64,000 bases of DNA from Planctomycetota bacterium (GCA_016208685.1 JACQXM010000036.1:62001-126000); one strand, 5' to 3'. Shown: positions 351-61,368, numbered from the stretch's first letter. The notes: generated by a model not told the origin, from the letters alone. Made by a program: numbers and translations.

Positions 351-1964
351 TTAATCCACGGCGGCGGCGAGCAGCGTGATGTCGTCGCTCTGCGGAGCGC
401 CGGCCGCGAAATCGGCCACCTCGCGGCGGATCTGCCGGACCAGCGCCTGGGCGTTCAGCGGCGCATCCCCATGAAGCAAGGCGCGCAGCCGCTCCGATCC
501 GAACCACTCATTTTGCGGGTTCATGGCCTCCACGATGCCGTCGGTGTACCCCAGCGCCAGGTAGGGCGGCGGCCCGAGCTGCCGGGCGGTGCATGCGTAC
601 TCGGCTTCCGCCGCGGCGCCCAGGGGCAGGCCGGGGTCGAGCACGAGCTCCTCCGGCGCCGACTGCCCGGGGCGGAGAACGAGCGGCGGGAAGTGCCCGG
701 CCGTGGCACAGCGGATCTCGTGCGCCCGCGGATCCAGCAGCATGAGCAGGCAGGTGATGAACTTCGCGGCGTCGGTGTTGTGGAAGATGAGACGGTTCCA
801 CCGTGAAAGCAGGGCGGCGGGGTCGTCGCTTTCATGGATGGTGACGCGGACGGCGGCTTGGAGATTGGCCATCAGCAGGGCGGCGGCCATGCCCTTGCCG
901 GTGACATCGGCGATCAAGCACCAGACGCGGCCGTCCCGCGCCTCGATCACGTCGTAATAATCGCCGCTCACCGACTGCCCGGGGTCGTTCACCGCGGCGA
1001 TTCTGAGCCCCGGGCGGTTGGGCAAGGCCGCGGGCAGCAGACCGGTCTGGATGGTCCGTGCCATGTCGATGTCATGGCTGAGGCGGATCATGCGTTTCTG
1101 CTCGTCCAGAAGGCGGCAGTTGATGAGTCCAATGGCAAGCTGCTGCGCGATTCCGGCGAGGAAGTCTATGTCTTCGTTGGTGTAGGAAACGGAGGAGCGG
1201 ACGCGGTCACCGTAGATGATCCCCAGCACTTGCTCCCGGTGGATGAGCGGCACGCAGAGCGCCGAGCGGATGCCGTGCTGCACCATGCTCACGGTGGGGT
1301 CGGCCGCCCCGCCCTCGCCCTCCACGAACATCGCCCGCTCCCCGTGCTCCAGGGCGCGGCTGAGCAGGGTGCGGCTGATGGTCAGCTCGCCTCTCGGGCC
1401 TTGCAGGTTGCGCACCACCGGCCAGTCCACCGCCCGCTGGTTGACGCGGCGGACGCCGATGGCCCCGCGCTCGAAATGCAGCATCTCGAAGCAGATGTTC
1501 ATCCCGTCCTCGAGGAGCTGGTCCTGACCCTGGAGGGTCGTGAGGCGTTCCCCCAGCTCGTAGATCATCTTAAGGCGCTGGCGGGAAAGGTTCAGTTCTT
1601 TGTCGCGCGTGGCGTAGCGCGTGGTGTGGCTGGTGGCCGGATCATCGGCGATGCGCACCGCGGTCGCGGACGTGGTCGCCGTCTCCCGGAAGACGAGAAG
1701 CGTCGAGCCGATGAGCACCTGGTCCCCATGCTTGAGCAGGCGCGACTTGGTGGGCACTTCGTTCACCAGCGTGCCGTTCTTGCTCTCTAGGTCCTCGACC
1801 ACGAAGCCGTAGGGTGTGGGGGCGATGCGCGCGTGGCGGCGTGAACTGCTGGGATCATCCAGGGGCAGATCGCAGGCCGCGTCCCGACCCACTACCAGCG
1901 CGTTGCCCGCCAGCAGGTGGTGCGACACGGTCCCGTTGGCATGCGTGATGACGAGTTCGGCCAT
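351..1964 (-). CDS. FHA-GAF-PP2C (SpoIIE-type) serine phosphatase
   Basis: A 537-residue cytoplasmic signalling protein. Residues 1-100 form an FHA domain (VVGRDAACD, SSRRHARI, SKNGTLVN), which binds phosphothreonine. About 140-290 form a GAF domain reached through a helical linker. About 320-537 form a PP2C/SpoIIE phosphatase with SGDYYD, DVTGKGMAAAL, GYTDGI and SDDITLL, the metal-binding aspartates of the RsbU/SpoIIE class. I chose the ATG that begins MAELVITH because the FHA fold starts at once; the 82 codons upstream look like non-coding translation. It probably reads a kinase-derived phosphosignal and dephosphorylates an anti-sigma-antagonist-like partner, but no such partner is adjacent. 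Confidence 0.88.
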   Translation of the reverse strand: MAELVITHANGTVSHHLLAGNALVVGRDAACDLPLDDPSSSRRHARIAPTPYGFVVEDLESKNGTLVNEVPTKSRLLKHGDQVLIGSTLLVFRETATTSATAVRIADDPATSHTTRYATRDKELNLSRQRLKMIYELGERLTTLQGQDQLLEDGMNICFEMLHFERGAIGVRRVNQRAVDWPVVRNLQGPRGELTISRTLLSRALEHGERAMFVEGEGGAADPTVSMVQHGIRSALCVPLIHREQVLGIIYGDRVRSSVSYTNEDIDFLAGIAQQLAIGLINCRLLDEQKRMIRLSHDIDMARTIQTGLLPAALPNRPGLRIAAVNDPGQSVSGDYYDVIEARDGRVWCLIADVTGKGMAAALLMANLQAAVRVTIHESDDPAALLSRWNRLIFHNTDAAKFITCLLMLLDPRAHEIRCATAGHFPPLVLRPGQSAPEELVLDPGLPLGAAAEAEYACTARQLGPPPYLALGYTDGIVEAMNPQNEWFGSERLRALLHGDAPLNAQALVRQIRREVADFAAGAPQSDDITLLAAAVD

Positions 1965-2312
1965 ACCGTGACGCCGGGACGATCCACGTGTCGCCCGCCA
2001 ATCGCCGCTCGATGATAGCGGGAGCCGGTTCGACCCGGTAGCGCCAACCGGCGCTTCCCGGACGGGCGGACTGGTGGCGGCAGCATGGGTAGACCTGTCA
2101 CCTGTTCTACGTGCGCAACTCATCGCCGCGCGACTCGCGCCGGGGTCACAGGCGAGCGGGAAAAACGGCGCGGGATGGCGCAGGACCGCGCACGGGCCAG
2201 GGGCGGACACCTATCAGCCAGTGGCGCAAAGCGGCCTACGCGATGTAGCACCGGCATCCTGCCCGTGAAAACATGGACTGGAAGCCCATGCCACGAGTTC
2301 TGCCACAGGCTG
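1965..2312. other. Intergenic stretch, mostly a mobile repeat
   Basis: About 350 bases without a credible gene. The right-hand third is one copy of the 102-bp interspersed element described separately. The remainder is the upstream region of the FHA-PP2C gene; open frames through it have no recognisable composition. No promoter could be assigned with confidence. Confidence 0.5.
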
Positions 2313-2316
2313 CTAT
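2211..2316 (+). repeat. Interspersed MITE/REP-like element, copy A1
   Basis: A 98-bp core flanked by a 4-bp direct repeat CTAT (2211-2214 and 2313-2316). The core begins CAGCCAGTGG and ends CCACAGGCTG, imperfect terminal inverted repeats. It carries two internal hairpins: one around GGCATCCTGCC preceded by GTAGC, and one around GACTGGAAGCCC. Closely related to the copies near 24.2, 32.3 and 53.1 kb. The right-hand CTAT contains the stop codon of the MazG-like gene, so the element sits exactly against that gene's end. Confidence 0.8.
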
Positions 2317-2606
2317 GGTTTGGCGTCGCAGGTGCAGACCAGGCGGCCGCAGCCGGGGCAGCCGTCGCCGTACTTGGCGGCCATGGCCGCGGTCAGGTCC
2401 ACGTCGTTGATATTGGCGAGCGTGATGAGCCAGGCGAGTACGTCGGCGAACTCCTCACACTTCTCCTGGTGCGATCCCTCACGCAGGGCCGACGCCAGTT
2501 CGCCGATCTCTTCGCACAGCCACAGGAAGGTCGCGGGAGAGCCGCGCTCGCGGTCCTTGGCGCTGTACATCTTCTCAATCAAGGCCTGAAGCTCGGCGAG
2601 TGTCAT
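2313..2606 (-). CDS. MazG-like nucleotide pyrophosphohydrolase
   Basis: A 97-residue all-alpha NTP pyrophosphohydrolase of the MazG/RS21-C6 type. These enzymes hydrolyse (non-canonical) NTPs to NMP plus pyrophosphate. The metal-binding glutamates are in LCEEIGEL (about residues 30-37), with the second helix pair in CEEFADVLAWL (about 50-60). The tail has a CPGC...CTC cysteine cluster that could bind zinc. It is a short single-domain version of the family. The stop codon TAG overlaps the direct repeat of the neighbouring mobile element. It follows the PH-domain gene on the same strand by about 130 bases. Confidence 0.82.
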   Translation of the reverse strand: MTLAELQALIEKMYSAKDRERGSPATFLWLCEEIGELASALREGSHQEKCEEFADVLAWLITLANINDVDLTAAMAAKYGDGCPGCGRLVCTCDAKP

Positions 2607-2733
2607 CGGGGTCGCATCCGTGAAAGCAGCGCTGGGCGGAACGCAGATCGCCGGCCCGAGTCTACCGGAACCCCGGAGTCGGACAAGCGGGCGCTACGGC
2701 GTCGGGGTCAAGCGGCCGCAACCGCGGCCAGGG

Positions 2734-3300
2734 TCACGTCGACAGCCCGTTGGCCCAATGGGAGTGGTCGATGGCGGACTCGATGGCGCGACGAATTCGG
2801 GTGTGAACCTCGTCCGGGCTGGTGATCGACCGCCACGCGGGCGGCGACTGCGCCGGATGCTCGGACACGAAGGTGATGGTTCCCAGGCCCACCAGCCGTT
2901 CCACGTGCGGCCGGGAAAGATACGTGTTTCGCACGTCCAACAACAAACAGGATGAAATGCGCGGCGCGCGTACGCCCTGGATGTTCATGATTCGGCGGTT
3001 GGTCAGCACGTACCACGTGGGCACCCAGCGCACCACGGCGATCCCCAGCCGCGCCAGGCCGATCAACAGTACCAGTTGCGTGGTGAGGGCGAGGGACAGG
3101 CCGGGAAGCGGCCGCTCCAGGCGCGTTAGCGCTAGCGCTGTAACGCACGCCGCCGCCAGCCACGCCGCCGACTCAAACACCGGCCGCCACATCGAGGGCT
3201 TAATCGCCAGCAGCACGAGTTCCCCACCGTCCACCACGCCGCCGGGCAGTTCGGCCCACAGCGCGTCCGCCCGCGCCGCGCGCGAGGGCACGTCGGACAT
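2734..3300 (-). CDS. PH-domain (bPH2/YdbS-like) membrane protein
   Basis: About 188 residues. Two adjacent hydrophobic segments (AAWLAAACVTALAL and ALTTQLVLLIGLARLGIAVV, about residues 40-85) precede a beta-rich C-terminal domain starting WVPTWYVLTNRRIMNIQGV. That is the signature of the bacterial PH (YdbS/bPH2) family, anchored in the inner membrane with the PH domain in the cytoplasm. The molecular role of the family is poorly known. I placed the start at MSDVPSRA because the preceding 76 codons look like random GC-rich translation; a start at ATG 3405 is also possible. Confidence 0.7.
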   Translation of the reverse strand: MSDVPSRAARADALWAELPGGVVDGGELVLLAIKPSMWRPVFESAAWLAAACVTALALTRLERPLPGLSLALTTQLVLLIGLARLGIAVVRWVPTWYVLTNRRIMNIQGVRAPRISSCLLLDVRNTYLSRPHVERLVGLGTITFVSEHPAQSPPAWRSITSPDEVHTRIRRAIESAIDHSHWANGLST

Positions 3301-3600
3301 GGTGGCGGCCGCCAGCGCTGCCGGAAGTCCGGCGGCGGTGCCGGGCCGCGCCGCCGGCGGCATAGGCGGCGTTCGACGGGCGACGGCGGTCACAAGACCC
3401 AACATGGCTGGTGCTCGCTGGTTCCACCCGGGCCTGCGGGCTCGGCCCGACATGCCCGGTGATACCGATAAGATCATCGACCGCTGCGGCGCTACAGTTG
3501 CGTTGGATGCCGGCGACGCGTCGCCCACGCACGGCCAATGCTGGAAACGCCGGCGCCAGGCCGACGAAACGCGCGCCGCCCGCGGTTGCCGGCCGCGCCG
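3301..3600. other. Intergenic or uncertain 5' extension
   Basis: About 300 bases between nadA and the PH-domain gene. An open frame continuing upstream of the PH gene crosses it, but its proline/arginine/alanine-rich translation gives no reason to treat it as coding. No RNA gene or clear terminator was seen. Confidence 0.4.
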
Positions 3601-4713
3601 CTATCGGATCGCCACCGGGCGCGGCGAGACGTTCGCCAGCATGCGCTCAAGGGCAATCACAGCGAGCTTCTTCGTCTCGCGGTCCACGCGTATCTGGTTG
3701 ACGACCCGGCCTGCCACTAGTTCGTCAAGGGTCCAGAGCAGGTGTTTCAGATCGATGCGGTACATCGTGGTACAAAGGCACTGGATTCCCGCCAGGGAAC
3801 GGATCGTTTTGTCGGGCATCTCGTTCATCAATCGATCCACGAGGTGAATCTCCGTTCCCACCGCCCACTTGCTGCCCGGGGCGGATTCACGCACCGTGCG
3901 GATGATGAACTCGGTGCTGCCCGCCAGGTCGGCCTTCTGCACCACTTCCCAGGTGCACTCCGGGTGCACGAGAATCTTGAACTCCGGGTCCAGGCGGCGG
4001 ATTTCATCGCACTGCGCAGTGGTGAAGAGGCCGTGGACGCTGCAATGCCCCTTCCACAGGAAGACCCTCGACACCGCGACCCGCGGCGCCGACAGACCGC
4101 CGTGCGCTCGCCGCGGATCGTAGACAACCATCGCATCCAGCGGAATCCCCATGGCAAAGGCGGTGTTGCGCCCCAGGTGCTGATCGGGCAGGAAGATGAC
4201 CTTCTCTCCCTGGCGGAACGACCATTCCAGTATGGCCCGGGCGTTGCTGCTGGTGCAGCACGCGCCGCCGTGGCCGCCGCAAAACGCCTTGATCGCCGCC
4301 GAGGAGTTGACGTAGGTGATGGGCACGAGGTCCGCACCGCACTCTTCAACGAGAAACGCCCAGGCCTCCTCAAGCTGGTCGAGGTCCGCCATGTCCGCCA
4401 TGCTGCAGCCGGCGGAAAGATCGGGCAGGATCACCTTGACGCGGTCGTCGGTGAGGATGTCCGCGGACTCGGCCATGAAGTGCACGCCGCAGAACACGAT
4501 GAACTCCGCGTCCCTCTGCTGCGCGCCGATCTGCGAGAGCTTCAGACTGTCCCCGGTGAAGTCGGCGAAGCGGATGACGTCGTGCTGCTGGTAGTGGTGC
4601 CCGAGGATCACCAGCCGCGAGCCAAGCTCCTGCTTGCGCAGGGCGATCGCCTGGCACATCTCCTCGTCGGTCAGCGCCGAGTACTTGGGCGGCAATGGCG
4701 GTTGAAAAAGCAC
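3601..4713 (-). CDS. nadA: Quinolinate synthase NadA
   Basis: A 370-residue [4Fe-4S] enzyme that condenses iminoaspartate with dihydroxyacetone phosphate to quinolinate, the second step of de novo NAD synthesis. Family landmarks include GHHYQ near the N-terminus and FCGVHFMAE. The three cluster cysteines fit the AGCSMAD, GGACCTSSNA and CLCTTMYR segments. HPEC and PDQHLGRN, also typical, are present. The GTG that begins VLFQPPLPP is chosen because NadA proteins usually start at this motif and it lies about 45 bases downstream of a good promoter; an in-frame GTG 48 bases upstream is the alternative. No nadB or nadC is nearby. Confidence 0.95.
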   Translation of the reverse strand: MLFQPPLPPKYSALTDEEMCQAIALRKQELGSRLVILGHHYQQHDVIRFADFTGDSLKLSQIGAQQRDAEFIVFCGVHFMAESADILTDDRVKVILPDLSAGCSMADMADLDQLEEAWAFLVEECGADLVPITYVNSSAAIKAFCGGHGGACCTSSNARAILEWSFRQGEKVIFLPDQHLGRNTAFAMGIPLDAMVVYDPRRAHGGLSAPRVAVSRVFLWKGHCSVHGLFTTAQCDEIRRLDPEFKILVHPECTWEVVQKADLAGSTEFIIRTVRESAPGSKWAVGTEIHLVDRLMNEMPDKTIRSLAGIQCLCTTMYRIDLKHLLWTLDELVAGRVVNQIRVDRETKKLAVIALERMLANVSPRPVAIR

Positions 4714-4766
4714 CGTCCGGCTACTCCTGCCCTCGGCTCCTATCGGATGCCGTGCTTCCACCCTAT

Positions 4767-4795
4767 ATTATAGGATACGCGCCGGCGGGGGCCAA
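4767..4795 (-). promoter_or_regulatory. Sigma-70-like promoter for nadA
   Basis: On the minus strand a perfect -10 TATAAT is preceded after 17 bases by TTGGCC (4 of 6 to the -35 consensus). The -10 is embedded in the short palindrome CTATATTATAG, a rare A+T patch in this GC-rich region. It lies about 50 bases upstream of the chosen nadA start. Confidence 0.55.
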
Positions 4796-4917
4796 ACGCC
4801 CCGTTGGGGCGGTCGTGGGAGCGGGCGGATGCAGGATCGGTGCCGTAGCGGGCAGGGCGCGGCCCCGACGCGAACCGCAACCGCGGCGCAGGGGCAAGCG
4901 CTGCCGGATGAGAGGTC

Positions 4918-5420
4918 ATGAGTAAGCCGAGAATCGCCGTCGTCTTCGGGAGCGACTCCGACTGGGCGGTCATGGAGTCCTGCGTCCGCCAGGTTCGAGA
5001 GTTCGGAGAGCCGGTGTTCGTGGAAGTGATGAGCGCCCACCGCAACCCGGACCGAGTGCAGGAGTTCGCTCGTGGCGCCGAGGGTAGCGGGATCGAAGTC
5101 ATCATCGCCGCCGCGGGAATGTCCAATGCCCTGGCGGGGGCCGTCGCCGCCCACACCTGCCTGCCGGTGATCGGCGTGCCGTTGGTTTCCGGCTCCCTGC
5201 AAGGGCTCGACGCCCTGCTCTCCACGGTGCAGATGCCTCCCGGCATTCCCGTGGCCGCCGTCAGCGTCGGCGACGCGGGTGCCAAGAACGCGGCACTGCT
5301 GGCCATCCAGATCATCGCCCGCCATGATCCGCGCCTCGCCGAGGCCTACCGCACCTTCAAGGCCAAACAGGCCGCCACCGTCGCCGCCAGGAACAAGGCA
5401 CTCCAGGAACGCCTCGCCCC

Positions 5421-51431: not shown

Positions 51432-52343
51432 TCAACTCCCCTCGTACGCTTGCACGAGCAGCGACTTGGCCTTCTCGAAGTCGGCCAAGTTGCGGATGGT
51501 GATCTCCAAGTCTCCGGTGCCATAATGGCCGATGTTGGAAACATCGCGGGTGAAACCGTCTTCCAGCGCAGCAGTCGCCGGGTCGAGCTTGGCGAAGACG
51601 TTGATTTTTTTGTCCTGTGTCCGGACCTCGATGCACGCGAAGTTCTTGATGCGTTTGAAGGCAAGGTAGTACTTGAGCGTTTTCATCTGCACGTCGTCGC
51701 CCAGAGCCAGCAAGAAGGCCTTGATCGCCTCAAACCGGTCCTTGAGTTCCCCGCTGAGTTGTTCGAGCGTCTTTGAGATCGTCTTGGGCGTGGCCGTGCC
51801 GGCGGGCGCCGAAGGGCCCTCCTCATCGGAGAGGCTCGCCGTAACTGCATTGACGAGATCGAGGAGCACCAGACCGTCGCCGTATCGACGGTAGCGAATC
51901 AGTTCGATGTTACGGTTGATCTGCTGGACGGCGTGTCCGTCGTAGCGCGTGAAGTCGCCGGCGATGCAGACGAGTCGCGGGCCGGTCCACTCGATCTCGT
52001 TGGGTGCGTCTTTGCCGAGCTTCTCTTCGACCAACAACTTGAAATCGGCCTTGTGGTCGAGAAGCCAATCCAGATAAAACAGGCCCTGATTGATGACGTT
52101 CTCGTTGGTCGCTCGCTTGTATTCGATGATGACGGGGCAACGGTTCTCGTCTAATCCCAGTGTGTCGATGCGGCCGCCATGGGTCTTGCCGGTCGTGTAC
52201 TCCGTGGCCAGAAAGCGGACGCCGAGGAAGGTTTCGAGGTGCCGCTCAATGAGGTCTTGAAGAGATTTCTCGACGGCGACGGACTGACCGTCTAGCTCGG
52301 TGACGGCGTTGTCGGATACGCGGAAGAGCCTGATGTCGCTCAC
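51432..52343 (-). CDS. NucS/DUF91-like nuclease domain with DUF5655 C-terminal domain
   Basis: A 303-residue protein starting GTG. Residues 25-120 form a PD-(D/E)xK-like nuclease core: LIERHLETFLGVRFLATEYT, GGRIDTLGLDENRCPVIIEYKR (catalytic D and E-x-K), NQGLFYLDWLLDHKADF. After a linker, residues 195-303 match DUF5655 (EQLSGELKDRFEAIKAFL, KNFACIEVRTQDKKINVFAKL, DVSNIGHYGTGDLEITIRN). Such proteins occur in defence and mobile contexts and as orphan predicted nucleases. Target unknown; no methylase is adjacent to suggest restriction. Confidence 0.8.
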   Translation of the reverse strand: MSDIRLFRVSDNAVTELDGQSVAVEKSLQDLIERHLETFLGVRFLATEYTTGKTHGGRIDTLGLDENRCPVIIEYKRATNENVINQGLFYLDWLLDHKADFKLLVEEKLGKDAPNEIEWTGPRLVCIAGDFTRYDGHAVQQINRNIELIRYRRYGDGLVLLDLVNAVTASLSDEEGPSAPAGTATPKTISKTLEQLSGELKDRFEAIKAFLLALGDDVQMKTLKYYLAFKRIKNFACIEVRTQDKKINVFAKLDPATAALEDGFTRDVSNIGHYGTGDLEITIRNLADFEKAKSLLVQAYEGS

Positions 52344-54820: not shown

Positions 54821-56119
54821 GTGCTGCTCAAGGGCGCCCAGCTGAACTTGTTTCCCGAACTTGATGCGGCGCCTCAGGTGCGCGATGCGGGCTCATCTAC
54901 TTTCATTGACAACATGCGCCTCCCGGTGCACCGCTGGCTCCGATTCAGCGCAGGCTTCTCCGGGGCATGGGCGCAACACATGATCGAGAGCGCTAGAACC
55001 AGGGGTGTCACGCGGGTCGTTGACCCGTTTACCGGATCAGGCACGACCCTGATAGCCGCTGAGAACGCAGGTGTGGATTGCTACGGGGTCGAGGCCCACC
55101 CGTTCGTCTACAAAGTGGCGCGGGCTAAGCTGGCTCGCCGCTCGAACAGCGATGCCTTTCGCGAAGTCTGCAGGATGATCCGCGCGAGCGCGGGTCGGCG
55201 CACGCCCGAACTCGATAACTACCCGAAACTCATCCGCGAGTGCTACACCGATGAATCGCTGGGCGAACTGGACTGCCTCCGCGCGGCGATCCAAGCGATT
55301 GACGATGGCTCGGAACCTGCTCAGCTGGCTTGGCTGACGCTGGTGGGGATCCTACGGCGTTGTTCGTGCGTCGGAACTGCTCAATGGCAGTACGTGCTCC
55401 CCAAGAAGTCCAAGAAGTCGCCCGTGCGGCCGTACTGCGCATTCGATGACCTCAGTCGCACGATCCTCGTCGACATGGTCGCTTCGTCCGATGTCGTCGG
55501 CCCCGCAGCCAATCTGCTTCTGGCCGATGCCCGCGACTGCACGGGTGTGCCGGACGGTTTCGCCACTCTCGTCGTGACGTCGCCGCCGTACCCAAACAAC
55601 TATGACTACGCGGATGCAACGAGGTTGGAAATGTGCTTTTTTCAGGAAATCCGCGGATGGGGCGATCTTCAATCAACCGTCCGCCGCCATCTTGTTCGCT
55701 CTTGTACGCAGCATGTCCCGGAACGGGCCGTCGATCTTCACTCGGTGCTATCCGATCCGATCCTGGAGCCAATCCGAGCCGATTTGACGCCAGTCTGCGA
55801 AGAACTGGGCAGGGTCCGGCTTTCAAGAGGAGGCAAAAAAACCTACCACCTCATGGTCGCGTGCTACTTCTACGACTTAGCCCGCGTGTGGGCCGCACTT
55901 CGGCGAGTCTGCGATAGTCCCAGTCAGGTCTGCTTCGTGGTTGGTGATTCCGCGCCCTACGGCGTTTACGTGCCAGTCATTGACTGGCTCGGGCGGTTGG
56001 CTGTTGCGTCCGGCTTCGACTCCTACAGGTTCGAACGTACGCGTGATCGAAACGTCAAGTGGAAGAATCGCAAGCACCGCGTTCCGCTTTGCGAGGGGCG
56101 ACTGTGGGTCGAGGGTTGA
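54821..56119 (+). CDS. Site-specific DNA methyltransferase (TSPPY type)
   Basis: A 432-residue SAM-dependent DNA amino-methyltransferase. Motif I is VVDPFTGSGTTLIAAENAG (about residues 66-84) and the catalytic motif IV is TSPPYPNNYDYADATRLE (about 246-263), so the order is the circularly permuted beta/gamma-like N4-cytosine or N6-adenine class; TSPPY is most common in N4-cytosine enzymes. A target-recognition region probably lies between (about 95-240) and in the C-terminal third. Base composition is visibly lower in GC than the neighbours, suggesting acquisition. The partner gene follows by 10 bases. Confidence 0.88.
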   Translation: MLLKGAQLNLFPELDAAPQVRDAGSSTFIDNMRLPVHRWLRFSAGFSGAWAQHMIESARTRGVTRVVDPFTGSGTTLIAAENAGVDCYGVEAHPFVYKVARAKLARRSNSDAFREVCRMIRASAGRRTPELDNYPKLIRECYTDESLGELDCLRAAIQAIDDGSEPAQLAWLTLVGILRRCSCVGTAQWQYVLPKKSKKSPVRPYCAFDDLSRTILVDMVASSDVVGPAANLLLADARDCTGVPDGFATLVVTSPPYPNNYDYADATRLEMCFFQEIRGWGDLQSTVRRHLVRSCTQHVPERAVDLHSVLSDPILEPIRADLTPVCEELGRVRLSRGGKKTYHLMVACYFYDLARVWAALRRVCDSPSQVCFVVGDSAPYGVYVPVIDWLGRLAVASGFDSYRFERTRDRNVKWKNRKHRVPLCEGRLWVEG

Positions 56120-56129
56120 AAGGCGCCAG

Positions 56130-56993
56130 ATGGCTCAATCACCTTCGCATCGCTTGGGACAGATCATCGGCGAGACGCTCGAATCTACGATCCGGCCGAT
56201 CCTGGAAGCTGTCGCCAAGAGGCACAGGCTGTACCTGGATTGCAAGAGCCCTCGCAAAGCGCGCGGCGGCAAACGCAAGGTCGTTTGGATAGATGGGAAG
56301 GGGAACACGCACGAACTGGACTATGTCATCGAGGCGGGCGGGAGCGATAAGACAACCGGTTTGCCCAAAGCGTTCATCGAAATTGCGTGGCGCCGGTACA
56401 CAAAGCACTCCCGTAACAAGGCGCAGGAAATCCAGGGCGCGATTGTCCCGCTCGCCGAGCGCTACGCCGATGCGCGCCCCTTCCTCGGTGTCATCTTGGC
56501 AGGCGTCTTCACTGAGGGTTCGCTCAACCAGCTCCGCTCGCACGGCTTCCAGGTCATCTACTTCCCGTACGGGAGCGTAGTTTCTGCCTTCGCCGAGGTC
56601 GGAATCGATGCCGCATTCGACGAGGACACTCCTGATTCGCATCTGAAGCGCAAGGTCGGGCAGTACAAGAAGTTGGTGTTGGCCCAGCGAGAGCGCATCG
56701 CCGCGTACTTACGTGACCGCCACAAGGCTGAACTGGACGCTTTCAGTGCAGCGCTGCATAGGACGCTGACCCGGAGTATCTGCACGGTCTACGTTCTTGC
56801 CCTTCATGGCGGCGTCCGGACACTCACCACCGTGGCGGACGCGATTGCTTTCATTGAGGCGTTCGACGAGATCACGCCACGTGGCCCGTTTTCTCGCTAT
56901 GAGGTCGGCGTACGCTACAGCAACGGTGATGAAGTTCGTGGGCAGTTCAACGACAAGGCAGCCGCGATTGCATTTCTGCGGTCGGTTCGGTAG
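56130..56993 (+). CDS. Probable restriction endonuclease partner
   Basis: A 287-residue protein beginning MAQSPSHRLGQIIGETLE. The segment ELDYVIEAGGSDKTTGLPKA, continuing FIEIAWRRYTKHSRNKAQEI, fits a PD-(D/E)xK-like core (aspartate in ELDYV, then E-x-A-W-R...K). FLGVILAGVFTEGSLNQL and HGFQVIYFPYGSVVSAFAEVG follow. I recall this family as uncharacterised proteins beside TSPPY methylases, so a type II restriction enzyme is the natural reading, but recognition site and activity are unknown. It shares the lower GC content of the methylase. The upstream open frame overlapping the methylase end is spurious. Confidence 0.75.
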   Translation: MAQSPSHRLGQIIGETLESTIRPILEAVAKRHRLYLDCKSPRKARGGKRKVVWIDGKGNTHELDYVIEAGGSDKTTGLPKAFIEIAWRRYTKHSRNKAQEIQGAIVPLAERYADARPFLGVILAGVFTEGSLNQLRSHGFQVIYFPYGSVVSAFAEVGIDAAFDEDTPDSHLKRKVGQYKKLVLAQRERIAAYLRDRHKAELDAFSAALHRTLTRSICTVYVLALHGGVRTLTTVADAIAFIEAFDEITPRGPFSRYEVGVRYSNGDEVRGQFNDKAAAIAFLRSVR

Positions 56994-57891: not shown

Positions 57892-60800
57892 GTGTATCAG
57901 GCTCCGGACTACAAGGACGTTCCGATCCTCCTCGTCGACGCAGTCGGCTTTTCGCAGCTCGAGACCGTCGAGCGAAAGCGGGCGTTGCTCGCGTCATTGC
58001 AGGACATTCTGCGCGCCGCGGCGAAGTTCTTCATGCCGTACGGCGATCCGTGGCAGAAGTGGCGACGTCACGGCACCGGCGACGGCTACTACTTCATCTT
58101 TGACGGCAGCTTGGGCCCGCAAGTGGCCCTGAAATACGCGCTGGACATTAAGACCCGCTGCTCTGAGTTCAATCGCGAAAGTGGCCGCGACATTGGCCTC
58201 CGCCTGCGCCAGTCCCTCGCCTTCGGCGACGTTGAACTGGTGGACGACCAGTTGCTCAGCGAAGCGTTCATCGAGGCCGAACGTTTCATCAGCAACGCCG
58301 CCTTCAAGCGGCATGCCGACCAAGCCGAGGACCCGGCGCCGGTAGTGGCCACTGAGCTCTTCCACTTCCAGTACGGTCGGGACCGTAAGCAAGAGCCAAA
58401 ACCGTTCGAACAACTCGAGGCGCTTACCTGGCGGCCGATCGCGTTCGCGGACAAGCACGGCAAGGCGTACCGCGGTTATTACCTGGGGGACGACTGGCGC
58501 GGCGAAGAGCCTGAAGCGCCGGCCGCCGCGCCCCCGGTCGAGCCCGCGTTTCGCATTCTCATTCTCGTGGCCCATAGCTCCGCCGGGCCATTACCGGAGG
58601 CGATCGATCTTCTCAATTGCGCGGTTGCCGATCTGAAGACCGCCGGGGTTTCGCTGGAGGTGCGTCTGAACCTCGCTTCGGTCAACGCGCTGCGACTCGA
58701 GGCGCAGGAGGGGTGCGACCTACTGATCTACTTCGGGCATGGAAACGACGTGGGGCAGTTGTTCTTCCTGGACGGCCCGGTGGACTACGCCGCGCTCTCG
58801 CCCCGCATCGGATTACAGAAGTTCTGGGAGGAATTGCCCGCCTGCCTTATCTTCGCTTGCCACGGGAAGAGTTTCGCGGAAGCGTTGCCGTGCCCCTGGA
58901 TTGCGTTCGGCGACACCATCCTGCGCGAGGCCCCCAAGGGCTTTCTGCATGCCTTCGCCGCGGCACTGAAGACCATGACCATCGACCAGGCGGTCAAGAA
59001 GGCCGCGGCGCATTGCCAACTGACGATGCAATCCAGCTTTGCCGCGGCGATCTGCCAATCTGCTTCCGCATTTCCGACGCGGCGCCTCCCGGCGGGCGAA
59101 GCTCGAGTGATTCAGCAGTCGCCGGCGACCTCAGGACGCTACGAGGTTGACTACGGGAACATCGAGCACGACGGAGCGGTATACCCGGAGCACGATCCGT
59201 TCGTGGGACGGGCCGCCGAGCTGGCTGAACTGGCGCGACTTCCTGACCCCGGCACGGAAGTTCCGGTCGTGCAGCGCTTCTGGGTGCACGGCGGCGCCGG
59301 GCTGGGCAAAAGCGCGCTGCTGCGGCAGCACGCGGTGTTCGTACGCGACACGGCTTTCCGGCCGGAGACCGAGCCGGTATGGCTGCTACACGCCTACTGT
59401 CAGAACTGCGTACTGCCGGGCGACGTGGAGAAGCTCCTCTGCGCCAAGGCCGCACGGTTGTACGGACTAACTCCTGCGCCGAGTGACCTGCGCGGCCTTA
59501 TGCGGGCTCTGCGACAAAGGCATGGCGCGCACGTCTGGCTTCTGGATGACCTCACGTACCTGCGCGATCCAAAGGGCGATCCGGAACAAGCCTATCGTCT
59601 GACGGGAGTACTCGCTGACCTGGCACGAGAGAACGGCGTTTTCATCCAGCTTTTGTTCAGCGCTCGTTTCGGTCCGCCCCAGGGCTGGCGGGCGATCGAG
59701 CTTACCCCGCTTAGTGACGCTGAGTCGCTGGAGCTGGGGGCACGGATCTGCCGGGAGGCGAAGCACGAGTTTACGCCCGCTGAGCAACTAGCGGCGCGGG
59801 AATTGCTCGCCCGGTGCGGACGATCCACGGCGCATTACAAACGTGCACTGCTCCTGGCCATGTTACGGATGACTACCATCGCGGAATACGCCGAGCAACT
59901 GGACGACCCCGGGTCGCTGGAGAACCTCAACGAGGACGAGTTCAGCGATCGGATGTTGCGGGGCGAGATCGCAGGCCTCGTTGACCTGGAGGCGCGGGAT
60001 GGTTTCGCCTACTCCGAGTTCTTTGGCCTCTACGAGCCGCTCATACTTCGCGTGGGCGATTTTTCCGAGTGCGAACTTCTCGAGTGGCTCGGGGAGCGGC
60101 TCTGCCCGGGACCTTCGACGATCGCGCGGGGCACGCGGCTTCGCAATGGGCTGACGCAGCTTACGCGTTTCGGATACCTCGCCGTCCGCAAGGACGATCG
60201 AGAGTTGCGCTTTTACATGCCCCCCAACCAGCGCCTGGCGTTTCGACGCATGGCCGCGTCGGCCCCGGACTTGCCGGCGGAGGTCCCATTCCGGGCGCCG
60301 AAGGCGCGGCTCTCGGCGGCTCTGGAGCGGCTCGCGAAGGGATCGCGGGACGCAATCACCGAGGTCCTGCAGCTTGAACGAGACTACTCCGGGCACATCC
60401 ACATCCCGGACGCCGCGGAAGCCGTGGTCGTGGGGATGCTCGTCCGAGCCGAATTGGCAGGCGCGTTAGCCGGGCTACACTTGGGACTCGCCGTCTACGA
60501 CGACGTCGTGCGGCGCTTCGGGGACCGGCCGGAAAGCGGCATCGCGGAGCTGGTGGCCAAGGGGCTGGTCAAGAAGGGAGCCGCGCTGGGGGCGCTGGAT
60601 CGGTTCGAGGAGGAGTTGGGGGTCTACGACGAGGTGGTGCGTCGCTTCGAGGACCGTCCCGAGAGCGGCATCGCGGGGACGGTGGCCGTGGCGCTGTTCA
60701 ACAAAGGGGTCAGGCTGGAGGCGCCGCTGGATCGGTTCGACGAGGCGTTGGGGGTCTACGACGAGGTAGTGCGTCGCTTCGGGGACCGTCCTGAGAGCGG

Positions 60801-61368
60801 CATCGCGGAGAGGGTGGCTAAGGCGCTGTTCAACAAGGGGGTCAGGCTGGGGGCGCTGGATCGGTTCGAGGAGGCGCTGGGGGTCTACGACGAGGTAGTG
60901 CGTCGGTTCGGGGACCGGCCGGAAAGCGGCATCGCGGAGCTGGTGGCCATGGCGCTGTTCAACAAGGGGGTCAGGCTGGGAGCGCTGGTTCGGTTCGAGG
61001 AGGAGCTGGGAGTCTACGACGACGTGGTGCGGCGCTTCGGGGACCGGCCGGAAAGCGGCATTGCGGAGCAGGTGGCCAAGGCGTTGTTCAACAAGGGGGG
61101 CAGGCTGGTGGCGCTGGATCGGTCCGAGGAGGCGCTGGGAGTCTACGACGACGTGGTGCGACGCTTCGGGGACCGGCCGGAGAGCGGCATCGCGGAGCGG
61201 GTGGCCAAGGCGATGTGCGGGCGGGTCTTAGCGCTAGTGGGCGCGGGCAAACGCCCGGAAGCAGAAACGGCCCTCACGGAAGCCGAGCGGTTCATCGCCG
61301 GGCGTCCGGAACCCGCGATCCGGGAACTCTTCGCTCAATTCCAGTCCGCACTTCGACAGGCTGAATGA
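57892..61368 (+). CDS. Nucleotide-cyclase-like / CHAT protease / STAND NTPase / TPR fusion
   Basis: A 1158-residue soluble protein (start GTG; ATG 57772 would add 40 residues that overlap the TolB remnant). Residues 9-165 resemble a class III nucleotide cyclase: ILLVDAVGFSQL (metal Asp 16) and HGTGDGYYFIFDG (metal Asp 64), with EAERF (Arg 131) where cyclases have N-x-A-x-R. Residues 219-400 are a CHAT caspase-like protease: YFGHGND (His 283) and IFACHGKSF (Cys 323). Residues 435-660 are a STAND NTPase: FVGR, GGAGLGKS, Walker B VWLLDD. About 680-800 looks winged-helix-like, and about 845-1140 holds six 43-residue TPR-like repeats. The plan is that of an NLR-like sensor: repeats sense, STAND switches, CHAT cuts. 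The adenine-selecting lysine position is His 60 and the transition-state Asn is absent, so cyclase activity or product may be unusual. Confidence 0.85.
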   Translation: MYQAPDYKDVPILLVDAVGFSQLETVERKRALLASLQDILRAAAKFFMPYGDPWQKWRRHGTGDGYYFIFDGSLGPQVALKYALDIKTRCSEFNRESGRDIGLRLRQSLAFGDVELVDDQLLSEAFIEAERFISNAAFKRHADQAEDPAPVVATELFHFQYGRDRKQEPKPFEQLEALTWRPIAFADKHGKAYRGYYLGDDWRGEEPEAPAAAPPVEPAFRILILVAHSSAGPLPEAIDLLNCAVADLKTAGVSLEVRLNLASVNALRLEAQEGCDLLIYFGHGNDVGQLFFLDGPVDYAALSPRIGLQKFWEELPACLIFACHGKSFAEALPCPWIAFGDTILREAPKGFLHAFAAALKTMTIDQAVKKAAAHCQLTMQSSFAAAICQSASAFPTRRLPAGEARVIQQSPATSGRYEVDYGNIEHDGAVYPEHDPFVGRAAELAELARLPDPGTEVPVVQRFWVHGGAGLGKSALLRQHAVFVRDTAFRPETEPVWLLHAYCQNCVLPGDVEKLLCAKAARLYGLTPAPSDLRGLMRALRQRHGAHVWLLDDLTYLRDPKGDPEQAYRLTGVLADLARENGVFIQLLFSARFGPPQGWRAIELTPLSDAESLELGARICREAKHEFTPAEQLAARELLARCGRSTAHYKRALLLAMLRMTTIAEYAEQLDDPGSLENLNEDEFSDRMLRGEIAGLVDLEARDGFAYSEFFGLYEPLILRVGDFSECELLEWLGERLCPGPSTIARGTRLRNGLTQLTRFGYLAVRKDDRELRFYMPPNQRLAFRRMAASAPDLPAEVPFRAPKARLSAALERLAKGSRDAITEVLQLERDYSGHIHIPDAAEAVVVGMLVRAELAGALAGLHLGLAVYDDVVRRFGDRPESGIAELVAKGLVKKGAALGALDRFEEELGVYDEVVRRFEDRPESGIAGTVAVALFNKGVRLEAPLDRFDEALGVYDEVVRRFGDRPESGIAERVAKALFNKGVRLGALDRFEEALGVYDEVVRRFGDRPESGIAELVAMALFNKGVRLGALVRFEEELGVYDDVVRRFGDRPESGIAEQVAKALFNKGGRLVALDRSEEALGVYDDVVRRFGDRPESGIAERVAKAMCGRVLALVGAGKRPEAETALTEAERFIAGRPEPAIRELFAQFQSALRQAE
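60478..61245 (+). repeat. Six tandem 129-bp TPR-like coding repeats
   Basis: Units beginning GTCTACGAC at 60493, 60622, 60754, 60883, 61012 and 61141, period 129 bp (one interval 132). Each encodes VYD-E/D-VVRRFGDRPESGIAE and a following helix VAKALFNKGVRLGALDRFEE. Near-identity at DNA level indicates recent duplication or gene conversion. Confidence 0.9.

Follow-up and report, generated by a model that had tools for sequence, protein, structure and literature searches.

A planctomycete protein that joins a class III cyclase-like domain, a CHAT protease, a STAND NTPase and TPR-like repeats: a candidate NLR-like receptor

In known bacterial NLRs the killing is done by nucleases, proteases, TIRs or membrane effectors, and in second-messenger immunity (CBASS, Pycsar, type III CRISPR) the synthase and the effector are usually separate proteins. 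What, then, is to be made of a single chain in which a nucleotide cyclase-like domain and a caspase-like protease precede one STAND module? Such a chain is encoded in a 64,000-nucleotide stretch of Planctomycetota bacterium DNA (GCA_016208685.1 JACQXM010000036.1:62001-126000), referred to here as the window; with both enzymes under a single STAND switch, it would combine the NLR and second-messenger strategies. The gene has its modules in a fixed order with intact catalytic residues, it is conserved in three phyla, and it lies among defence genes. We read its product as an NLR-like STAND immune receptor whose two outputs are a CHAT protease and a cyclase that is probably active, and give this reading a probability of about 0.58. 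The parts of the gene are as follows.

57892..61368, + strand: whole gene, cyclase-like / CHAT / STAND / TPR-like, 1158 amino acids, GTG start (open frame)
57913..58506, + strand: class III nucleotide cyclase-like domain with C-terminal extension, residues 8-205 (profile against PDB cyclases; Foldseek on a low-confidence model)
57937..57939, + strand: Asp16, predicted first metal-binding aspartate (invariant in 23/23)
58081..58083, + strand: Asp64 in HGTGDGY, predicted second metal-binding aspartate (invariant in 23/23)
58282..58284, + strand: Arg131, counterpart of the transition-state arginine (invariant in 23/23)
58546..59091, + strand: CHAT caspase-like protease domain, residues 219-400 (AlphaFold; Foldseek)
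58738..58740, + strand: His283 of the catalytic dyad, GHG (10/10 CHAT-bearing members)
58858..58860, + strand: Cys323 of the catalytic dyad, FAC[HY]G (10/10 CHAT-bearing members)
59182..60351, + strand: STAND/NACHT-type NTPase with C-terminal helical region, residues 431-820 (weak Pfam; homologues above cut-off)
59290..59313, + strand: Walker A, GGAGLGKS, including Lys473 (10/10 conserved)
59536..59550, + strand: Walker B, WLLDD (10/10 conserved, L-E/D-D)
60493..61216, + strand: TPR-like tandem array, putative sensor, 129-bp (43-amino-acid) unit x 5.6 (Tandem Repeats Finder)

Starting at GTG 57892, the reading frame runs for 1158 codons without interruption and is closed by the stop at 61368. 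Upstream of this GTG the same frame stays open back to 57652; even so, the initial ATG of a homologue from a Chloroflexota metagenome-assembled genome (MAG), L028, falls exactly in the alignment column of GTG 57892, which supports it as probably the right start. A preliminary description of the locus had proposed four modules in one chain, and this holds: the frame is intact, and D16, D64, H283, C323 and K473 all stand at the positions given there. H283, C323, G325, K473 and the Walker B acidic residues are also kept in homologues of other phyla. When the window protein is compared with L028 and L029 (the latter from a Magnetococcales MAG), identity is 45-55% over the cyclase, 40-45% over CHAT and 28-44% over the STAND region, so that the predicted cyclase domain is the best conserved of these. 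NCBIfam and PADLOC scans of the window protein returned no useful match, and no model of Pfam, NCBIfam or PADLOC detected the cyclase or the CHAT domain; each of the two was therefore tested by independent means.

For the cyclase, a 23-row profile built on residues 1-205 of the cyclase modules of the true family matched class III cyclases in the PDB (3mr7, E=1.9e-10; Ma1120, E=4.9e-5), with a marginal match to the uridylate cyclase 8jsz (E=0.75). A five-row profile derived from weak homologues in Streptomyces plasmids matched PDB class III cyclases as well (3mr7, E=2.3e-7). A direct comparison of two of our profiles (A11 and A7) was discounted because the window sequence is in both. Throughout the 23 cyclase modules D16, G63, D64, G65, R106, G112, R131 and F157 are invariant, and chance resemblance to a cyclase was rejected on this invariance together with the profile matches. 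The best Foldseek matches of an AlphaFold model of the domain, adenylyl and guanylyl cyclases, lend weak support; since the model itself is poor, the fold is assigned from sequence profiles and motif conservation. The domain is thus a class III cyclase homologue with both metal aspartates, as had first been proposed, and its homologues retain them, so that the outcomes named beforehand as refuting the preliminary description did not arise.

The second enzyme could be approached through structure. An AlphaFold model of the CHAT region, made from a five-sequence alignment, reached a pLDDT (predicted local distance difference test) of 84 and a pTM (predicted template modelling score) of 0.85, and a Foldseek search with it gave SAVED-CHAT 8tl0 as the best match (E=4e-8), followed by caspases (E about 1e-5). 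Peptidase_C25 matched weakly in 4/5 sequences. The Pfam CHAT family PF12770 does not match the window protein, and a search of its own genome with that family finds solely another gene. By modelled fold and by its dyad, the domain is placed in a CHAT-like branch that lies outside the Pfam model. The His-Cys dyad of the preliminary description accompanies this predicted fold.

Between this N-terminal effector and the C-terminal repeats sits a P-loop NTPase with Walker A and B motifs. In the window protein Pfam gives AAA_16 (E=4e-4) and NACHT (E=6e-4), both below cut-off, and a weak TPR match; two homologues, L072 and L076, exceed the Pfam NACHT cut-off. The intact STAND module of the preliminary description is therewith borne out, and so is its repeat region, in which 5.6 tandem copies with 88% matches were found. 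The best pairs of repeat units are about 91% identical in DNA, which suggests that the array was expanded or homogenised recently. By analogy to other STAND receptors, the repeats would serve as the sensor.

How widely is this arrangement found? From 84,980 species genomes a pattern scan gave four loci, L028 to L031. The first two keep the complete cyclase-CHAT-STAND order; in L030 N-terminal hydrophobic segments stand ahead of CHAT, in the cyclase's place. Among 392 genomes of the same phylum there were two true matches, the window itself and G081, a Planctomycetota MAG whose locus is L031 and which lacks the N-terminal domain. The 84,980-genome scan relied on no more than two 8-residue patterns and did not pick up at least five Magnetococcia members that emerged afterwards (the two collections may also differ in content), so the counts are lower bounds. 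In 48 genomes of the class to which the Magnetococcales belong there are six full-length members (the genome of L029 included), one CHAT-STAND gene without the cyclase, and about 16 sites that match the cyclase module alone; 301 Chloroflexota genomes gave two true matches. The homologue search that had been proposed at the outset thus recovered an identical domain order in L028 and in six Magnetococcia genomes, and the predicted cyclase-CHAT-STAND architecture is conserved across at least three phyla, with a patchy distribution. No relative was found in scans of viral contigs, and there is accordingly no sign of phage carriage in them; a full-length tblastn search against plasmids gave matches to the TPR region alone. 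When the 23 cyclase domains are placed in a tree, a single change divides CHAT-linked from CHAT-less sets (88/88 support), and the window pairs with L028 (98/97) within a well-supported CHAT-linked set of five members from three phyla. This split, and the spread of the set, suggest that the cyclase and CHAT have travelled together.

L076:204-4964, from Magnetococcia, encodes 1587 amino acids, in which cyclase-CHAT-NACHT-TPR is extended at the C-terminus by an AAA_21 (OLD/AbiEii-like) ATPase; this gene is followed by a separate open reading frame (ORF) that starts MRLLIAVEGQTEERFV. At L031:4144-6865 the CHAT-STAND gene is immediately preceded by two ORFs, one of them caspase-like (MAKTDWAIVMGVSKYPALGDLDGAERDASEF..., with an AGHG motif).

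The same cyclase module also occurs in other company. In Magnetococcia the CHAT-less proteins that carry it are mostly cyclase-NACHT-FGE. In L060, L062 and L066 (genes 1906-4974, 969-4403 and 2143-5211) the FGE-coding end has a near-copy downstream; 41/42 mismatches between the repeats fall at an A of the downstream copy, and a reverse transcriptase gene lies nearby. Such a template repeat/variable repeat (TR/VR) pair has the signature of a diversity-generating retroelement (DGR), and at least three Magnetococcia cyclase-NACHT-FGE proteins are thus predicted to be diversified by a DGR-type TR/VR pair, as recognition receptors would be. With the cyclase module on DGR-type NACHT sensors, what output hypermutated sensors control becomes a testable question. 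Proteins of about 560-610 amino acids (L058:2471-4300 and L067:2423-4096) have the same cyclase module followed by a C-terminal region without a recognised family.

In Streptomyces a related cyclase is encoded by a stand-alone ORF directly 5' of a STAND or TPR gene and beside a Crp/Fnr gene. PycTM adjoins the related cyclase in two Streptomyces records, which are near-copies of each other. On two Streptomyces plasmids (L025:2459-8618 and L033:4459-12068) the cyclase ORF runs into the start of a large TPR/STAND gene, and these loci may represent a STAND-controlled Pycsar system.

How would the window protein work? We infer that the TPR-like repeats recognise a trigger, which is probably a phage protein; the STAND module would then bind or exchange nucleoside triphosphate (NTP) and oligomerise. 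Oligomerisation would gather the two N-terminal outputs, bringing cyclase-like domains and CHAT proteases together. Class III cyclase domains work as head-to-tail dimers. The assembled cyclase would then make a cyclic mononucleotide, and the CHAT protease would cut a target in the cell, with abortive infection as the outcome. A more daring version makes the protein a self-contained receptor with two coupled enzymes: the cyclic mononucleotide of the fused cyclase, possibly with an unusual base, would directly gate CHAT in the same assembly and so provide a threshold or an amplification step. We hold this coupling to be rather improbable. If it were so, the cyclase module would be an unnamed family of second-messenger synthases, and an output of bacterial NLRs that include DGR-hypermutated ones.

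The usual Asn of the Asn-Arg pair is absent from the cyclase-like domain, position 127 (four before Arg131) being Ile in the window protein and T/I/V/S across the 23 modules. An equation of Asn loss with a dead enzyme was rejected, since Ma1120 has Ala at the transition-state Asn position and is active, and putting Asn back abolished its activity (PMC4215837); by the same token the loss of Asn here does not imply a dead enzyme. In mycobacterial cyclase-like proteins Ile is conserved at this position (PMC4886424).

Several observations weigh against the reading of two active outputs. Modelled by itself with AlphaFold (three sequences), the cyclase domain has a pLDDT of 48 in the resulting model, and active-site geometry cannot be read from it. 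The base-reading positions, which have been described for characterised pyrimidine cyclases (PMC11224242), would correspond to L14, H60 and T62 in the alignment as we read it, and these fit neither the ATP set nor the known pyrimidine-cyclase sets. No PycTM-type receptor was found in the window's own genome, in those of L028, L029 and L030, or in ten Magnetococcia genomes. Finally, L030 and L031 are CHAT-STAND without the cyclase, which is therefore dispensable in some members.

Two rival explanations concern the role of the cyclase. In the main one, the cyclase-like domain is a non-working cyclase that regulates the CHAT protease by nucleotide binding or dimerisation; it would sense a change in NTP or cyclic nucleotide, or hold the protease off or in register. 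The missing Asn and the atypical base-recognition residues speak for it, as does its direct fusion to another effector in the window protein, and inactive cyclic nucleotide monophosphate (cNMP) cyclases have been reported in some conflict systems (PMC7159879). That no cyclic-nucleotide effector was recognised fits such a regulator, or else direct coupling to CHAT. However, the metal aspartates and the arginine are invariant over 23 divergent sequences and two architectures, and inactive relatives usually lose them; the active Ma1120, moreover, tolerates the loss of Asn. We regard the regulator as possible but doubtful, and the cyclase as probably active on the conservation of its residues.

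The other explanation takes CHAT and STAND as the core receptor and the cyclase as an arm that sends a diffusible signal to a separate effector elsewhere, as Pycsar does in trans. It draws on the Streptomyces loci, in which PycTM and a STAND/TPR gene accompany a related cyclase, and on the two loci that lack the cyclase. Since the stand-alone Streptomyces cyclases come with PycTM, a partner acting in trans is possible by analogy, although none was found in the window genome. The neighbours of the window gene likewise include no PycTM/PycTIR or recognisable cyclic-nucleotide receptor (TIR was not searched genome-wide). On balance, we consider a separate effector in trans to be rather unlikely.

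The proposed receptor with two fused outputs would also be an immune receptor, and here the surroundings of the gene have their say.

51432..52343, - strand: phage-defence candidate PDC-S18, DUF5655 / NucS-like (PADLOC E=3e-147; Pfam DUF5655)
54821..56119, + strand: type II DNA methyltransferase (PADLOC MTase_II, E=7e-136)
56130..56993, + strand: type II restriction enzyme (PADLOC REase_II, E=9e-66)

The methyltransferase and the restriction enzyme are the two genes immediately 5' of the window gene, on the same strand; the impression of a defence-like cluster, gained before any search was made, thus agrees with the PADLOC names. Downstream lies a pair resembling an extracytoplasmic function (ECF) sigma factor and its anti-sigma factor. 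Mammalian soluble adenylyl cyclase has the general architecture cyclase-STAND-TPR. Given this shared layout, the window protein could be a housekeeping or developmental signalling regulator of the same kind rather than an immune receptor, and the ECF sigma gene 3' of it, as well as the ordinary genes among which several homologues lie, would suit such a role. Yet its distribution is patchy in its own phylum and in Chloroflexota, and the swapping of N-terminal modules, the DGR-diversified sisters and the adjacent restriction-modification genes fit conflict systems; a housekeeping role seems to us very unlikely.

Where does such a receptor stand among known systems? The NLR-like STAND proteins Avs and bNACHT (PMC10907252, PMC12169576) share its plan of an N-terminal effector, a central STAND NTPase and a C-terminal sensor, sometimes of TPR; the window protein differs from them in having two N-terminal enzyme modules, one of them a cyclase, and the PADLOC Avs/bNACHT models gave no relevant match to it. 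The DGR-diversified NACHT/CLec antigen sensors (PMC10907252) combine a STAND switch with hypervariable C-terminal recognition, which the Magnetococcia sister proteins fit; no cyclase is named for those sensors, and the window protein has TPR-like repeats and no FGE/CLec.

Pycsar (PycC with PycTM/PycTIR; PMC11224242) likewise has a class III-fold cyclase with two metal aspartates (spacing 48 here, 44 in EaPycC/AnPycC), and the related Streptomyces cyclase adjoins PycTM. The window cyclase is, unlike PycC, fused to a protease and an NTPase, its base-recognition positions differ, and no PycTM partner was found. Pycsar proper was rejected as an identification, the window genome having no PycTM, PADLOC no PycC match, and 8jsz being marginal. 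SAVED-CHAT (8tl0), the closest solved CHAT fold, is also a protease under nucleotide control; it is activated via a SAVED sensor of cyclic oligonucleotides, in place of which the window protein has a cyclase.

Caspase, cNMP cyclase and STAND modules recur in VMAP, iSTAND2 and EACC1-caspase systems (PMC7159879, PMC8195603), to which we also liken the hydrophobic N-terminal segments of L030. EACC1 systems have the cyclase in place of the caspase, whereas the window protein carries both; no MoxR-vWA pair or EACC1 gene was recognised among the neighbouring ORFs scanned, which did not include every small ORF. According to Kaur et al. (PMC7159879), cNMP cyclases and caspases are among the modules that can stand in for one another at the N-terminus of conflict-system proteins.

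A precedent comes from another planctomycete. A protein of Gemmata massiliana has an N-terminal nucleotide cyclase, FGS, TRADD-N and a C-terminal caspase (PMC8195603), and hence also puts a cyclase and a caspase-superfamily protease in one predicted conflict chain. Compared by description only, it differs in its TRADD-N and FGS, in the C-terminal position of the caspase, and in that no STAND or TPR is named for it. The first statement, that no described system was known to join a cyclase and a CHAT protease in one chain, must be narrowed accordingly: a cyclase-caspase chain has a precedent, and it is for cyclase-CHAT-STAND-TPR that no report was found in the open-licence literature. Since Pfam and PADLOC do not see these branches of the cyclase and of CHAT, annotation probably falls short for proteins of this kind.

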